Assembly: GCA_022842905.1 (NCBI GenBank)
Contig: JALHOS010000002.1
Coordinates: 1-59,226 of the forward strand
DNA from: Myxococcaceae bacterium
Lineage (GTDB): Bacteria; Myxococcota; Myxococcia; Myxococcales; Myxococcaceae
Direction of reading: 5' to 3'
DNA length: 59,226 nt
Part shown: positions 50,219-59,101 of the stretch, piece by piece
Layout: every line of letters begins with the position of its first letter
Position numbering within the stretch: position 1 is the stretch's first letter
The notes under the pieces: generated by a model
The model's database searches: none
What the model saw: only the letters and a program-made list of their open reading frames with translations
What the model was told of the DNA's origin: nothing
Made by a program: the position numbers and the translations under genes

Positions 50219-51127
50219 TCAGCGGTTTGTCGGGAGCACGCGGCGACGGCGCAACCTTTGCGCGGCGAGCAGGAACAGGCCGAGCGGCGCGCCCGAAGAA
50301 GCCGAGCAGTCGATGCGGCCCTTCACGCGGGTCGTCTGCGCGGCGAGCTCGTCGCAGGGCACCGGCGGGCGGCTCTTGGGGTACGTCAGGCAGAAGCCGG
50401 TCGCGGTCCCGTGATCGATGACGCGTTTGCGCGTCTCCCCCAACGGCGCCGTGGGCGCCATGGTCGACGACTCTTCCGGGACGTGATCGAGCCCCACCAC
50501 GTGGCCGATCTCGTGGGTCAGCGTGTTCTGGAGATCGTTGGCGACGCACAGCGCCGAGCTCGCGCCTTCTTCACAGACAGGCTCGGACACGGTGGTGAAG
50601 AGGAAGCCGCCGCCGCTCGTGCCGGGCGACGCGTTCAGCTCGATGTCGGAGTCGGTGATGATCCCCGTGCGCGTCGAGTACGTCGACGTCGTCAGGCCGA
50701 TCGTCAGCTCGGAGTGATCCCAACAAGCGTGCACGTTGGAGCAGGTGTTGTCCGAGAGGCAGGGGTCGCCGAGCGGGACGACCTGGCGGCAGGAGCGCTC
50801 ACGAAACGTGATCACGTTGCTGTCGTTGCTGCCGGCGCCGACGCGAGGGCGATCGATTCGCGGCCCGCGGACGAACTTGAAGTCCGAGCAGGTGTCGGAC
50901 ACGGCCTGCCAGGTCGAGAACGCCTGATCGATCGCGATGAACTCGTTGTCGCCGGGGATCTGCCGGCTGCCGGCGGCGTCCACCCGGTACACGTACTCGC
51001 GCTTGTTCCACGTGACGCAGGTGACCGTCTCGGCCACGCCCACGCCCTGGGCGATGGTGCGCACGTAGTCCTGCGCCAGGGCCGGTGCGCCCACGACGAG
51101 GATCAGCGCTGGCACCCACGAACGCAT
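50219..51127 (-). CDS. Secreted matrixin-like metalloprotease
   Basis: 302 residues with a signal peptide (ALILVVGAPALAQD). The zinc site is HEIGHVVGLDH (HExxHxxGxxH), followed by the Met-turn region SSTMAP, as in metzincins of the matrixin type. Many Cys residues suggest disulfides. The C-terminus has a Cys (IDCSASSG), a short hydrophobic stretch (LGLFLLAA) and an RRRR cluster, resembling the MYXO-CTERM sorting signal. It is a tandem paralogue of the next upstream gene, seven bases away. Extracellular digestion of prey or host proteins is likely but inferred. Confidence 0.87.
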   Translation of the reverse strand: MRSWVPALILVVGAPALAQDYVRTIAQGVGVAETVTCVTWNKREYVYRVDAAGSRQIPGDNEFIAIDQAFSTWQAVSDTCSDFKFVRGPRIDRPRVGAGSNDSNVITFRERSCRQVVPLGDPCLSDNTCSNVHACWDHSELTIGLTTSTYSTRTGIITDSDIELNASPGTSGGGFLFTTVSEPVCEEGASSALCVANDLQNTLTHEIGHVVGLDHVPEESSTMAPTAPLGETRKRVIDHGTATGFCLTYPKSRPPVPCDELAAQTTRVKGRIDCSASSGAPLGLFLLAAQRLRRRRVLPTNR

Positions 51128-51134
51128 GCGCGCC

Positions 51135-52028
51135 TCAGGTCCCCTTCCGCCGACGCCGCGTGAGGCCCCACAGCCCGACGAGCGCCACCGTCGCCGGAAC
51201 GCCGACCACACCGCAGCCCCGCGCCGTCACCCCGAGCTGGCTGTCGGCCTTCTTGAGCACACACTGCACGGCGTAGCCGTTCTTCGGGTACACCTCACAC
51301 AGGAAGCGCTTCGAGTCCGCGTCGAGCACGCGCTTGCTGGTCTCGCCGGGGACGGCCTCCGCGCTCATCGTCGAGCTGCGCGAAGGCGAGTGCGCCAGGC
51401 CGAGCAGGTGGCCCACCTCGTGCGTCATGGTGTTCTGCAGATCCGTCGCGACGCAGTCCTGGCGGCCCGTCCCAGCGGGGCACGGTGGCGAGTCGACGAC
51501 GGTGAAGATGAAGCGGGACCCGTTCGAGTTCGGCGCCGCGTTGAGCTCGATGTCGCCGTCGAAGATCTGCCCGGTGTTCGGGCTGAAGAACGTCGTCGTC
51601 ACGGCGATCGCCGTCAGGCTGTGGTCCCAGCACTGGTACTCGTTGGCGCACCCGTCGACCCGCTGCCAGCACGCCGCCGTCGCTGGCGCCGCGACGGTGC
51701 AGCGTTTGGTCTTGAACACCACCACGTTTTCGTTGCTCCGCGCCGAGTCGTACGCGACGTCCGTCGTCGTGGTTCGCGCCCCTTCCGTCAGCTTGAGGCT
51801 CGCGCATTTCCCAAGCTCGGTGTTCCAGGCGTCGAACGCCTCGCGCACCTCGGTGAACTCGCGGTCGTCCATGATCTCCATGTTCCCGGCCTGGTGCTGC
51901 CGGTACACGATCTCCGTGCCTTCCTTCCACCACAGGCACGGCGAGGTCGACGACGAGTCGTTGACGCGGCTGCGCACGTACTGGCCCTGGGCAACGGCCA
52001 CCAGCGCGACCAGCACCAGCTCGCTCAT
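51135..52028 (-). CDS. Secreted matrixin-like metalloprotease, tandem paralogue
   Basis: 297 residues. It shares the layout of the preceding entry: DIELNA...GSRFIFTVV, then CVATDLQNTMTHEVGHLLG with the active site HEVGHLLGLAH and SSTMSAE. Both have the CWDHS motif, so they are clear paralogues. The C-terminus reads RGCGVVGVPATVALVGLWGLTRRRR: Cys, hydrophobic helix, Arg cluster, as in MYXO-CTERM proteins. Its ATG overlaps the stop of the upstream secreted-protein gene (ATGA). Confidence 0.87.
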   Translation of the reverse strand: MSELVLVALVAVAQGQYVRSRVNDSSSTSPCLWWKEGTEIVYRQHQAGNMEIMDDREFTEVREAFDAWNTELGKCASLKLTEGARTTTTDVAYDSARSNENVVVFKTKRCTVAAPATAACWQRVDGCANEYQCWDHSLTAIAVTTTFFSPNTGQIFDGDIELNAAPNSNGSRFIFTVVDSPPCPAGTGRQDCVATDLQNTMTHEVGHLLGLAHSPSRSSTMSAEAVPGETSKRVLDADSKRFLCEVYPKNGYAVQCVLKKADSQLGVTARGCGVVGVPATVALVGLWGLTRRRRKGT

Positions 52029-52630
52029 TGCTTCACCGCCGGGGTGGGCGCTGGCAGGCGCGGCACGGGCGTCAGCGGTGCTTCTTGCGGGGCAGGACCA
52101 ACGGAGCGCCGGACCAGCGCGCTGAGCGCGTCGAGCGTCATCGACTGCGCTTTGACCGACGTGGGCTGCCGGGTCGCGGGATCCAACAACAGCGCGTCGA
52201 ACTCGTCGGCCTGCCGCGCGAAGGCGGCCTTGCCGTCCGAAGACCGCTCGACGGTGAACTTGCCCTGCGCCATGCCGGTGACGGTGAAGAACGGGCCCCG
52301 GCGCTCGAGGAACAGCACGACCTCTTCGCCGACCGTGAACTTCGCCACGCCCGACACCCGCTGGCCGACGTCGCCGATCTCCCCGCCGGGCTGCGTCACC
52401 TGCGCCACGGCCCCCACGTCGCCCTTGAGCGGCTGGAGCACCTCGACCTGCGCGACCGTGAAGATGCGGGTCTTGTCCTGCGACCACTGCGGCTCGACCT
52501 TCGTGACGCGACCGCGCAGCACGACGTCGGAGACCTGCGTGAGACCGGGTACGTCGAGCGCGATGAGCGTCGTGGCCCACGCCACGCTCGACGCCACCAA
52601 GAAGCCTGCTGCCAGCGTGTGCTTGCGCAT
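52025..52630 (-). CDS. Secreted protein of unknown function, first gene of the protease operon
   Basis: 201 residues with a signal peptide (MRKHTLAAGFLVASSVAWA). The mature part is beta-rich: LVLRGRVTKVEPQWSQDKT-like segments, GDVGAVAQVTQPGGEIG, FTVGEEVVLFLERR. It resembles small OB-like secreted proteins of myxobacteria but no family is certain. As first gene of the run, coupled to the tandem proteases, it could be an inhibitor, chaperone or accessory factor; this is inference only. Confidence 0.75.
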   Translation of the reverse strand: MRKHTLAAGFLVASSVAWATTLIALDVPGLTQVSDVVLRGRVTKVEPQWSQDKTRIFTVAQVEVLQPLKGDVGAVAQVTQPGGEIGDVGQRVSGVAKFTVGEEVVLFLERRGPFFTVTGMAQGKFTVERSSDGKAAFARQADEFDALLLDPATRQPTSVKAQSMTLDALSALVRRSVGPAPQEAPLTPVPRLPAPTPAVKQ

Positions 52631-55489: not shown

Positions 55490-55560
55490 TGGGGAATCGT
55501 CCAACGGCAGGACTCCAGACTCTGACTCTGGCTATCTAGGTTCGAATCCTAGTTCCCCAA
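55490..55560 (+). tRNA. tRNA-Gln (anticodon CTG)
   Basis: A complete cloverleaf of 71 bases. Acceptor TGGGGAA pairs with TTCCCCA, D-stem GTCC/GGAC, anticodon stem CCAGA/TCTGG with loop CTCTGAC (anticodon CTG), a four-base variable loop, and T-stem CTAGG/CCTAG around TTCGAAT. CCA is not encoded. The downstream neighbour is a phage integrase, so this gene is the likely integration target. Confidence 0.95.
55541..55559. other. Candidate phage attachment core in the 3' end of tRNA-Gln
   Basis: TTCGAATCCTAGTTCCCCA, the T-loop to acceptor end of the tRNA. Tyrosine integrases of this type commonly use this part of tRNA genes as core. Only one copy is in the window; the second should lie at the other end of the element, outside it. 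Confidence 0.45.
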
Positions 55561-55673: not shown

Positions 55674-56852
55674 TCATGTGGTGCGGCCTTTCGTGGTGCT
55701 GCCGGTTGAACGACGGTGGGACTGCCTGGTGGGACTGCTCTTCGTGCTGCCTGCTGCTGTTGAGGGGCCGGGGCGTGTGTCACCACGCTTCGGCCCCTCG
55801 TCTTTCCTGCGCTGACTCCGCGCAGGCAAGGGACTTGCGGACTCTGGCGGCGGGTCCAGTCCTTCAATGGCGCTGGCACCGACGCGCGCGCCCATGAGGC
55901 TCCGCAGGTAGACCGCCGTCTTCTCCAGCGAGGCATGGCCCAGAAACTGGCGGATGGTTTCCTCACCCTTCCCCGCTGTCCACAGCTCGACGGCCACCGT
56001 GTGACGGAAGACGTGCCACAGGCTGCCCTCTGGGAAGTCGGCCGGCGCGACACCGCGCAGCCGCGCGCCCAGCGCCGCCAGCTCGTCCGCGCGGAAGGGG
56101 AAGCACAGCTCGGTGGTGTGCAGCGTCTGCCCGCCGTGCCCCGTCCACACCTGCGCATTGCCCTCGCGCCGCAGCTCCGCCAGCGCGTCGGCCAGCTCGC
56201 GACGCATGGGCAGCCGGCGCCGCGCTGCCTCGGACTTCAGGACGCGCGTGCACTCCAGCGAGTTGGGCCGGCGCCGCTGCTGGTCCACGGTGAGGTAGCC
56301 CGCCACCGCGTCCACGTGCCGCCACTCCAGCCCCAGCGCTTCCCCGCGCCGCAGGCCTGCGAAGCGCAGCACGCACAACAGCGCGCGCTCCCGCTGCGTC
56401 GCGCAGACGCCCAGCAGCCACGGCCAAATGCCGTGCACGTCCTTCAACGCGCGCCGCTGCGGCACCACGCGACGGAAGGGCACGTGCGCAACGGGGTTTG
56501 CGGTGCACCAGCCGCACGCCTGCGCCGCGCGGTAGAGGTGCATGAGGTGCCCGCGGAGCACGGACACCGTCCCATCCGCCAGCGGGCCCCCGTCGCGCCC
56601 GCCGCCCGTGCGCAGCTCCGACAGCCACCGCGCCACGTCCTTGGGCGTTGGGTGCGACGGCAGCGGGCGCACCTGCGCCGCGCCCTTCGTCGCGAGCGCA
56701 AGACAGTAGCGGACCCCTGCGAGCGTGGACGGGGCCTTGCCCGCACACAGCTGCGCGAGGAACAGCTCTCCCAGCTCCGCCAGCGTCGCGCCCGCTGGCT
56801 GGTAGACGGGCAGCGTCTTCGCCGCTCCGCCCAGGTAGACGACTTCTCCCAT
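55674..56852 (-). CDS. int: Tyrosine-type site-specific integrase
   Basis: 392 residues. The N-terminal SAM-like core-binding part (about 20-120) precedes the catalytic domain with Arg168 (FAGLRRGEALGLEW), His280 and Arg283 (LWHVFRHT), His306 (RQFLGH) and the nucleophile Tyr315 (KTAVYLRSL), so all key residues are present. About 65 residues of low-complexity, Ser/Arg/Pro-rich tail follow. GAGAGGGG lies a few bases before ATG 56852. It is read towards tRNA-Gln, which is 113 bases past its stop, as expected for an integrase beside its attachment site. Confidence 0.93.
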   Translation of the reverse strand: MGEVVYLGGAAKTLPVYQPAGATLAELGELFLAQLCAGKAPSTLAGVRYCLALATKGAAQVRPLPSHPTPKDVARWLSELRTGGGRDGGPLADGTVSVLRGHLMHLYRAAQACGWCTANPVAHVPFRRVVPQRRALKDVHGIWPWLLGVCATQRERALLCVLRFAGLRRGEALGLEWRHVDAVAGYLTVDQQRRRPNSLECTRVLKSEAARRRLPMRRELADALAELRREGNAQVWTGHGGQTLHTTELCFPFRADELAALGARLRGVAPADFPEGSLWHVFRHTVAVELWTAGKGEETIRQFLGHASLEKTAVYLRSLMGARVGASAIEGLDPPPESASPLPARSQRRKDEGPKRGDTRPGPSTAAGSTKSSPTRQSHRRSTGSTTKGRTT

Positions 56853-57105: not shown

Positions 57106-57483
57106 ATGACCAAGCCCACCTCCGCCGTGCTCTCCGTCGTCCTCCTGCTGTCGTCGTGCGCCACCTTCGGCCACTCCTCGAAGGCTCCAGACGCCCGCCA
57201 AGTGGTGGCCGGCGACACACTCCAGTGCGCTGCGGCTGCGCAGCGCACTACCATCGCCGCGGCGCTGGTGTCCGTTGGAACCAGCGCACTCGCTACGACG
57301 CTCGGCAGCTACGACAGGACGACTGGCGGTCAAATCGGCTCAGTCACCCTTGCCGTCGGCTCCCTCGTGGCGGCGCTCGTGTCCGGCGTCGCTTTTGGCC
57401 ACTCGGTGGCCTACCTGGACCGCGCTGGCAAAGTGCTCTCCGGCGCCAGCGCCGACGGATGCAAGCCGCCTGCTGGGGACTGA
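57106..57483 (+). CDS. Phage-borne lipoprotein of unknown function
   Basis: 125 residues: lipobox LLLSSC (Cys18) and two later Ala/Val/Gly-rich hydrophobic stretches, each flanked by small polar residues (TIAAALVSVGTSALATTL and GSVTLAVGSLVAALVSGVA). It is on the strand opposite to the lysis cassette and the integrase, which is typical of a separately expressed cargo gene of a prophage. Superinfection exclusion or another surface effect on the lysogen is possible but only inferred. It ends five bases before the stop of the convergent Acb2-like gene. Confidence 0.65.
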   Translation: MTKPTSAVLSVVLLLSSCATFGHSSKAPDARQVVAGDTLQCAAAAQRTTIAAALVSVGTSALATTLGSYDRTTGGQIGSVTLAVGSLVAALVSGVAFGHSVAYLDRAGKVLSGASADGCKPPAGD

Positions 57484-57488
57484 CCCAG

Positions 57489-57689
57489 CTACGGCAGCAC
57501 CGCGCGCACGGCCGCGTCTTTCGCCTCCAGGAGCTTGCGGAGCGCGACGCTTCGCTCTGCGTTCCGCGGACACGTCGCCACCACCAACAGCGCCAGCTCT
57601 CCGAAGGGCTGCGAGACGGTGCGCAGCGGCTCCGGCAGGTGCGCCGCGTTGAAGAAGCGCAAGATGGGCTCTTCGGTTGGCTGGCTCAC
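57489..57689 (-). CDS. Small phage protein resembling the Acb2/Tad1 hairpin family (putative anti-CBASS)
   Basis: 66 residues starting at GTG 57689. The pattern FFNAAHLPEPLRTVSQPF, then ELALLVVATCPRNAERSVA and ALRKLLEAKDAAVRA, is what I recall for the Acb2/Tad1 hairpin family, whose members bind and sequester cyclic oligonucleotides made by CBASS immune systems. The helical-hairpin build fits: two helices joined at CPRN. The match is from memory of the family pattern, not from an alignment. The GTG lies within the stop of the preceding small membrane protein gene (GTGA). It is the last gene of the cassette. Confidence 0.6.
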   Translation of the reverse strand: MSQPTEEPILRFFNAAHLPEPLRTVSQPFGELALLVVATCPRNAERSVALRKLLEAKDAAVRAVLP

Positions 57690-57880
57690 CAGACACCCCC
57701 GGCCCCGCGGTAGCCGGCGCCGGTGGCCGTCACCACCTTGGGCGACTGCGCGCTCCCGGAGGCCTTCCCGCCATGGAAGGGCAGGTGCACGTTGGGGTTG
57801 TCGCGGTTGGCGTACGCCCACCACAGGAAACCAGCCGCCACCCCCGCCGCGCCCAGCACCATGCCACCCAGCCACTTCAC
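57686..57880 (-). CDS. Small phage membrane protein
   Basis: 64 residues from GTG 57880: one N-terminal membrane span (LGGMVLGAAGVAAGFLWWAY) and a short polar tail (NRDNPNVHLPFHGG). The start sits in the stop of the upstream lipoprotein gene (GTGA), and the stop sits in the start of the Acb2-like gene. Possibly a holin or lysis accessory protein; no family recognised. Confidence 0.65.
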   Translation of the reverse strand: MKWLGGMVLGAAGVAAGFLWWAYANRDNPNVHLPFHGGKASGSAQSPKVVTATGAGYRGAGGVW

Positions 57881-58047
57881 GGCGCACCGCCGTCGCGCTG
57901 AAGCTCCACCGCCGCTTGCGTCTCGACGCGCAGCGCGCCGCTCTGGTCCGCCTCCACGCACACCCGCCCGCGCGCGAGCGCCGCCATGGTGGCGCACGAG
58001 CTGCCCACCGTCACCGCCACCACCCACACCCAAAGAAGCCGCGTCAT
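57877..58047 (-). CDS. Tiny phage lipoprotein, spanin-like candidate
   Basis: 56 residues: MTRLLWVWVVAVTVGSSC is a lipoprotein signal with Cys18, followed by 38 residues. GAGGAG lies seven bases before ATG 58047. Small lipoproteins placed next to a holin and endolysin are often outer-membrane spanins (Rz1-like), but this one is not Pro-rich and no inner-membrane partner is certain. Overlaps the following small gene by four bases. Confidence 0.6.
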   Translation of the reverse strand: MTRLLWVWVVAVTVGSSCATMAALARGRVCVEADQSGALRVETQAAVELQRDGGAP

Positions 58048-58077
58048 GCCCACTCTCCTCGCCCACGAAATGCGAAC

Positions 58078-58119: not shown

Positions 58120-58239
58120 TTACTTCGACGACGCTTCGCGGAGCTTCTGCGCCGCGTACGCGCCCACCATGCCGCCGATGGCGCTCCCGAAGCCCATGAA
58201 GACGCCCACCACCATCGCCTGCTTCCAGTTGATGCCCAT
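58120..58239 (-). CDS. 39-residue single-span membrane protein, holin-like
   Basis: From ATG 58239, eight bases after a GGAGGG site: MGINWKQAMVVGVFMGFGSA and then a Gly/Ala-rich continuation form one membrane helix, with a short polar end (QKLREASSK). It lies between the endolysin and the small lipoprotein gene, the position of holins, although most holins have two or three spans. Too short for firm assignment. Confidence 0.6.
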   Translation of the reverse strand: MGINWKQAMVVGVFMGFGSAIGGMVGAYAAQKLREASSK

Positions 58240-58293: not shown

Positions 58294-58950
58294 TCAGCCC
58301 GAGACGCCCAGCACCTGCTTCGCCCGCGCGTAGCGCGCGTCCCTGTCGGCCTTGCCGTTGAGCCCGCCGTTGATGCGGCGGGTGATGGCGTCGAAGCTGC
58401 GCGCGTCCGCCAGGGCGTTCAGCGCGTGCTTCGTCCAGTACCAGGCCGACACCTTGAAACCCCACTCAGGCAGCTCCGCCAACTCCGGCCGCGCCACCAA
58501 GTCCACACCCAGCGCAGCACTGGCCGCCGCGTAGTTGGCGCGGCCCGTCACCTGGATGGGCCCGCGCCCACGGAAGCGCACGCCGTCGCCCGGTTGCACG
58601 TTGCCCAAGTCGCGCCTGCCTTCGTACGCTTCGCCGCTGGCCAGCTCTCGGAAGTAGCGCAGGCTGCCCGACTCGTGCCCTACCTGCGCCAGGAAGGCCG
58701 CGAGCCTCAGCGGCGTGGTGACTTCCGCTTGTTCCACTGCCGCCAGCAGGTGCGGAAGCAGCTGCTCGGCGCGCGCCGTCGCCAGGCCTGGCATCACGGC
58801 CACCAGCTGCGCCACCGTCAGCAGCGGCACGGCCGGCGCTGGCGTCGTCGTCATCACGTCAGCACTCTCCTTGCCGCGTCGCCACAGCCACCAGCCCAGG
58901 CCGCCACCCACCACCACCACACCGCCCGCCACCAGCGCGCTACGGGACAC
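58294..58950 (-). CDS. GH19-type phage endolysin with signal-anchor N-terminus
   Basis: 218 residues from GTG 58950. Residues 3 to about 22 are a Gly/Ala/Val-rich hydrophobic segment ending in WWLWRRGK, like the weakly hydrophobic SAR signal-anchor of some phage endolysins. The catalytic part has the GH19 chitinase-like pattern: AFLAQVGHESGSLRYFRE with the catalytic Glu, then RFRGRGPIQVTGRANYA and RRINGGLNGKADR. It would cleave peptidoglycan. ATG 58854 would remove the anchor and leave a cytoplasmic form needing a holin. It overlaps the preceding tiny gene by 11 bases. Confidence 0.85.
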   Translation of the reverse strand: MSRSALVAGGVVVVGGGLGWWLWRRGKESADVMTTTPAPAVPLLTVAQLVAVMPGLATARAEQLLPHLLAAVEQAEVTTPLRLAAFLAQVGHESGSLRYFRELASGEAYEGRRDLGNVQPGDGVRFRGRGPIQVTGRANYAAASAALGVDLVARPELAELPEWGFKVSAWYWTKHALNALADARSFDAITRRINGGLNGKADRDARYARAKQVLGVSG

Positions 58951-59101
58951 CGGCCACCCCCGCCACCGCCCGCGCCACGGCCGCGCACAACTCCCTCGCC
59001 GGCTCCGGCCACCACGGACACGACGCAGCCAGCGCCGCACCGGTGGCCAGCACCAGCAGCCGCTGCGCCCACGTCGGGAGTCGTCGCCGCTGTCGCTTCA
59101 C
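58940..59101 (-). CDS. Tiny phage protein with signal/lipobox-like N-terminus
   Basis: 53 residues from GTG 59101: basic start (KRQRRRLP), hydrophobic stretch (LLVLATGAALAASC, lipobox-like with Cys28) and an Ala/Val-rich tail. The GTG lies in the stop of the preceding gene (GTGA) and its end overlaps the endolysin start. No family recognised; coding is supported mainly by the exact overlaps. Confidence 0.55.
   Translation of the reverse strand: MKRQRRRLPTWAQRLLVLATGAALAASCPWWPEPARELCAAVARAVAGVAGVP

Follow-up and report, generated by a model that had tools for sequence, protein, structure and literature searches.

Sequence comparisons support a distant relationship between a small myxobacterial prophage protein and the Acb2/Tad1 hairpin proteins

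Does the small gene that closes a phage cassette in a Myxococcaceae bacterium encode a sponge for cyclic nucleotide signals, and if so, is that sponge of the Acb2 type? The locus lies in a window of 59,226 nucleotides (contig JALHOS010000002.1, the whole stretch of DNA that was analyzed), in which a sequence-only reading had noticed a 66-residue gene at the cassette end with an HLPxxLxxVSxPF pattern and had proposed it to be an Acb2-like anti-CBASS gene. We found the gene and its pattern to be present, but on the minus strand: the single real ORF of this segment runs from the GTG at 57689 to the TAG at 57489 and encodes a 66-aa protein (VSQPTEEPILRFFNAAHLPEPLRTVSQPFGELALLVVATCPRNAERSVALRKLLEAKDAAVRAVLP*), and the translation of the plus strand is unrelated to it. 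The GTG shares bases with the TGA stop of the preceding gene (GTGA), an arrangement resembling that of translationally coupled phage genes, and is supported as the start codon by relatives with a matching start position (e.g., L017, MTQPTEHILQFF). These relatives belong to phrog_1761, a phage family of unknown function that matches residues 3–65 of the protein with E=3.9e-23. Given this match, the many relatives found by tblastn and in IMG/VR, and the invariant columns described below, the ORF is a real gene, far beyond chance.

By tblastn, 324 phage records contain phrog_1761-type relatives, with 50–65% identity for the closest of them, and family members were found in at least 424 IMG/VR stretches as well as in 192 stretches among one-per-species bacterial genomes. 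Alignments of 40–44 diverse relatives contain 15–18 invariant columns, and the window copy shares with its relatives the core motif HLPxxLQxVSxPFxxLA...PRNxERTVALRKLLEAKDAAVRA. The invariants proper to the family are H15, L16, S24, R49-K50, L51-L52-E53, K55-D56 and R60, of which R49, K50, K55, D56 and R60 show near-absolute conservation in 149 diverse sequences. Elsewhere, the neighbors of family members vary between endolysin, portal, terminase, RecT or polymerase genes and between differing types of phages, and such mixed neighborhoods suit an accessory gene better than a single, constant module. In the Ochrobactrum phage vB_OspP_OH (L083:765-1130), the family member is fused behind a CxxCxGxG zinc ribbon (anti-TRAP/DnaJ-like) and is annotated as “anti-TRAP domain-containing protein.” One divergent member (L171 / L254:5483-5830, minus strand), from a complete genome within the host's own family, has its two hairpin helices separated by a long insertion, which recalls the long inter-helix loop of PaMx33 Acb2. 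A literature search for the phrog_1761 family or its motif found no paper.

In the window, the gene is the last of a minus-strand lysis cassette that reads endolysin, 39-aa membrane protein, 58-aa lipoprotein-like protein, 64-aa membrane protein and then the 66-aa protein, whose start is overlapped by the 64-aa gene (Table 1). The 58-aa protein is possibly a small phage lipoprotein, judging from its first residues, and a PHROG search gave no match for the 64-aa, 58-aa or 39-aa proteins. The tRNA-Gln(CTG) gene adjoins the integrase gene and is likely the attachment site of the prophage; a second copy of its 3′ end, which would mark the second attachment site, was not found in the fragmented host assembly. 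Because the contig ends at 59226 and cuts the prophage, a single prophage edge is visible. Between the 66-aa gene and the integrase lies a convergent ORF (57107-57483, plus strand) with a lipoprotein signal (LLSSCATF) and hydrophobic segments, for which no convincing PHROG match was found. Farther away, two adjacent minus-strand genes (50219-51211 and ~51295-52300) encode metalloprotease-like proteins with HExxHxxGLxH motifs (HEIGHVVGLDH and HEVGHLLGLAH), both with C-terminal hydrophobic-Arg tails similar to myxobacterial sorting tails.

Table 1. Features of the prophage end that contains the 66-aa gene
Feature	Coordinates	Strand	Evidence or remark
tRNA-Gln(CTG)	55490..55560	+	ARAGORN
Integrase, prophage edge	55674..56852	-	phrog_1 integrase, E=8e-31
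66-aa Acb2/Tad1-hairpin-like protein (phrog_1761 family)	57489..57689	-	GTG overlaps upstream TGA
64-aa small protein, single membrane span	57686..57880	-	Span read from sequence; ORF list
58-aa protein, signal/lipobox-like start (GSSCATM)	57877..58053	-	ORF list, sequence
39-aa membrane protein (MGINWKQAMVVGVFMGFGSAIGGMVGAYAAQ...), holin-like candidate	58120..58239	-	Read from sequence
Endolysin, exact start uncertain	58294..59040	-	phrog_181 endolysin, E=1e-64

As to the Acb2-like label, the Pfam model PF24729 (Acb2/Tad1 hairpin domain), the first check that the sequence-only reading had suggested, scored 13.3 bits (E 0.096) against the 66-aa protein, under the curated gathering cut-off of 27 bits, compared with 66 bits for PaMx33 Acb2. 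The cut-off was reached by none of 44 relatives and by none of 10 chosen diverse ones (best relative scanned, 18.0 bits); by the curated Pfam definition, the protein is not an Acb2. In addition, BLASTP gave no pairwise alignment with PaMx33 Acb2, which belongs to a different PHROG, phrog_717. Other candidates were set aside: a weak NCBIfam PopD match (E 0.011) was treated as chance, weak Pfam matches to TetR_C_11 and DUF7917 were dismissed as helical background, and searching the sequences of solved structures, whether with the 66-aa protein itself or with the family profile, returned nothing beyond chance matches (ribosomal L23 and others).

A more remote kinship emerged when families were compared. 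The 66-aa protein by itself matches phrog_1454 (E 1.7e-4), which is also matched by 15 of 15 canonical Acb2-type sequences, a set gathered from one PF24729 match above the cut-off. Aligning 152 family sequences with 72 canonical ones, hhalign returned E 2.4e-6 (Prob 89, score 34.3) over 49 columns that cover the F-x-Y..H-x-P motif and the P-x-[SN]-x-E..A-x-x-K-L-x-E hairpin motif, and a smaller, independent comparison of profiles yielded E 5e-6. Hairpins of two helices are a widespread fold, and one could suspect a chance likeness of two helical-hairpin families with no common descent. We hold this to be very improbable, given that the hhalign score is twice the best obtained among 40 composition-preserving column shuffles (17.0; reversed control, 9.8), that the motif alignment of the two families runs ungapped through the turn, and that reciprocal HMM searches matched 68 of 72 and 138 of 152 real sequences, with only 3 of 1512 and 2 of 3192 decoys (5 of ~4,700 in all). 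The profile alignment, the reciprocal searches with their decoys and the phrog_1454 match together support the view that the 66-aa protein and the Acb2/Tad1 hairpin proteins are distantly related, phrog_1761 being a sister family in its own right. In the course of these comparisons, the canonical Acb2-type profile found its best PDB match in a chain of 9ptq named “Acb2 homolog 43,” for which a literature search found no paper.

The predicted structure points the same way. The AlphaFold2 model, built with 40 family sequences (pLDDT 93.9), places helices at residues 6–11, 18–37 and 42–61, the first of them short and N-terminal, the other two paired in a hairpin whose turn carries the conserved P-R-N-x-E-R. 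The Acb2 protomer consists of one short N-terminal helix and two long antiparallel helices (PMC12043709, PMC10419184); the model shows this topology, and a fold other than a two-helix hairpin, which would have spoken against the original proposal, was not predicted. It thus resembles PaMx33 Acb2 (p26, PDB 8h2j/8ixz) and T4 Vs.4 (PDB 7uq2) in its predicted short helix and antiparallel hairpin (PMC12043709). The model of a canonical relative has helices at 12–33 and 38–61, and its turn proline falls in register with that of the 66-aa protein. A match to a solved Acb2 structure, also anticipated by the sequence-only reading, was absent: Foldseek against the PDB retrieved no Acb2 or Tad1 with the window model, although T4 Vs.4 ranked first with the canonical control model. 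What Foldseek and VIA-align did return from the PDB were weak, unrelated, generic helical hairpins, a result that counts on the side of chance likeness. Against BFVD, the close family was followed by many models named “Acb2/Tad1 hairpin domain-containing protein,” with weak E values (0.055 and up). The evidence from the fold is supportive of Acb2 kinship, not decisive. Remote kinship with Acb2, seen in the profile alignment, the reciprocal HMMs, phrog_1454, the topology and BFVD, is therefore the part of the label that held, and curated Acb2 membership the part that fell.

How the protein departs from its better known relatives bears on what it may bind. It agrees with canonical PF24729/phrog_1454 members in size, predicted hairpin register and the core P-x-[SN]-x-E-[RQK]-[ST]-x-A-L-x-K-L-x-E, and differs from them in its shorter N-terminal loop, in its Pfam score under the cut-off and in the replacement of Y (RY), R (IR), SRE, T, W, N and I. 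Tad1 (Thoeris anti-defence 1; PDB 7uav, 8kbb) has a C-terminal hairpin of the same motif class as the canonical Acb2-type members (SREnaxAlThxEEA); unlike Tad1, the 66-aa protein is a bare hairpin, with few residues before the first helix and no N-terminal antiparallel beta-sheet domain. The near-invariant residues of the canonical sequences are Y (FTYH), R (IR), S-R-E, T, W and N, and the aligned phrog_1761 positions are Y/F/W/H at 13, S24, N41-x-E43, R49, A57 and V59; where the canonical sequences have IR, SRE, T, W and N, phrog_1761 carries S24, R44, R49, K55-D56 and R60 of its own.

In T4 Acb2, Y8 is required for cyclic dinucleotides, F82 stacks on them, and the Y8A mutation disrupts dinucleotide binding (PMC12657218). 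Position 13 of the family, which we equated with T4 Y8 through the profile alignment, is Y/F/W/H in 388 of 400 relatives (~97%), which favors a retained nucleotide-stacking role in the family. The window copy, with Ala13, Ser24 and Gln25, is among the ~3% that have no aromatic residue there, and the stacking aromatic of the dinucleotide pocket is absent from it. As for the basic pocket residue, the equivalent of the Arg of the canonical IR is Ser24 throughout the family, the window copy included. In PaMx33 Acb2, the corresponding residues are Y11 and K26; both the Tyr and the Lys of the dinucleotide pocket are missing in the window copy. The neighboring position 25 is K/R in 101 of 149 relatives and Gln in the window copy, and Gln25 recurs in 5 of 5 members of this set with a non-aromatic residue at 13. 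The association, strong in this set, weakens in a larger one: among 400 sequences (one misaligned left out; relatedness uncorrected), Gln25 occurs in 6 of 11 non-aromatic members vs. 29 of 388 aromatic ones, and the 13–25 pair ranks 139th of 1540 by mutual information (400 sequences), so that a linked change of the two positions is no more than suggestive. Judging from its residues, the window copy has probably lost the cGAMP-type pocket or has it in altered form. The Acb2 of phage T2 reportedly has a probable dinucleotide-site mutation, and Panoptes has been discussed as what it responds to (PMC12657218); a Panoptes-like pressure behind the pocket change in the window copy is speculation.

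These replacements weigh on the original idea of an anti-CBASS sponge that takes up cGAMP-type messengers in a dinucleotide pocket, in the style of PaMx33 and T4 Acb2. The remote homology to Acb2 speaks for it, as does the host group, in which CBASS is common: CBASS-type SMODS cyclases are above cut-off in 50 of the 145 genomes of the host's order. Against it stand the Ala13 in place of the stacking Tyr, whose change to Ala in T4 Acb2 (Y8A) disrupts dinucleotide binding, and the Ser24 in place of the basic K26/R equivalent, as well as the host assembly, in which neither an SMODS cyclase nor AGS_C was found; the SAVED search of the host, in which the controls gave no match, was set aside. We thus regard this reading as quite unlikely. 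Across genomes carrying family members, CBASS is above cut-off in 11 of 42, a fraction that has no usable baseline for comparison and was given no weight. The phrog_1761 family itself is rare in the order, occurring in 3 of its 145 genomes, one copy being split by a frameshift, and canonical PF24729 occurs in 2 of the 145. The literature presents Acb2 as relatively uncommon and limited to certain phage groups (PMC11722364). The split copy, in a related genome, extends over two frames (G092:C347:2796-2995; L172, L173) and reflects either gene decay or faulty assembly. Given that PF24729 stays under its cut-off, that no Acb2 was recovered from the PDB and that two pocket residues are replaced, an anti-CBASS gene, and with it a CBASS pressure on the phages of this group, are matters of inference rather than findings, and anti-CBASS activity of the protein is at most plausible.

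In the window copy, helix 2 retains its charged face. Another possibility is that the protein is a superfamily relative that no longer binds nucleotides and has another role in the phage, for example as a small partner of a lysis or packaging protein, its invariant charged face (R49-K50, K55-D56, R60) binding protein or nucleic acid. Near-absolute conservation of these five residues would agree with such a role, and so would the endolysin, portal or terminase genes that are often adjacent and the zinc ribbon fusion of one phage; mixed neighborhoods with no single constant partner, and the aromatic residue that most of the family retains at the stacking position, argue against it, and we consider it unlikely. 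We slightly favor, at somewhat better than even, a nucleotide sponge with a specificity unlike that of Acb2, formed by a protein that belongs to the Acb2/Tad1 hairpin superfamily as a divergent member. Such a sponge would be made late, along with the lysis genes, and would form small oligomers, probably hexamers, with pockets between the subunits that would hold cyclic nucleotide alarm signals and so keep the host effectors from being switched on. Because Ala13, Ser24 and Gln25 make an atypical dinucleotide-type pocket, the ligand of a sponge would more likely be a cyclic trinucleotide or other signal than the cGAMP bound by PaMx33 and T4 Acb2.

Extended to the family as a whole, this reading becomes tentative, and we put it at below even: phrog_1761 may be an unrecognized, widespread sponge family with a ligand other than those of Acb2 and Tad1, which it would recognize through its own invariant residues (H15, S24, R49-K50, K55-D56, R60), and in which the aromatic-less minority, often with Gln25 and including the window copy, would have a further shifted specificity, possibly under pressure from defenses such as Panoptes that penalize the sponging of cyclic dinucleotides. 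The sister family, which Pfam misses, occurs in hundreds of phages whose hosts differ widely. If its members also sequester nucleotide signals, counter-signaling by phages would be broader than catalogued, and the family would offer ready, natural pocket variants with which to map specificity; if they bind no nucleotides, the Acb2 fold would have been reused for another purpose.
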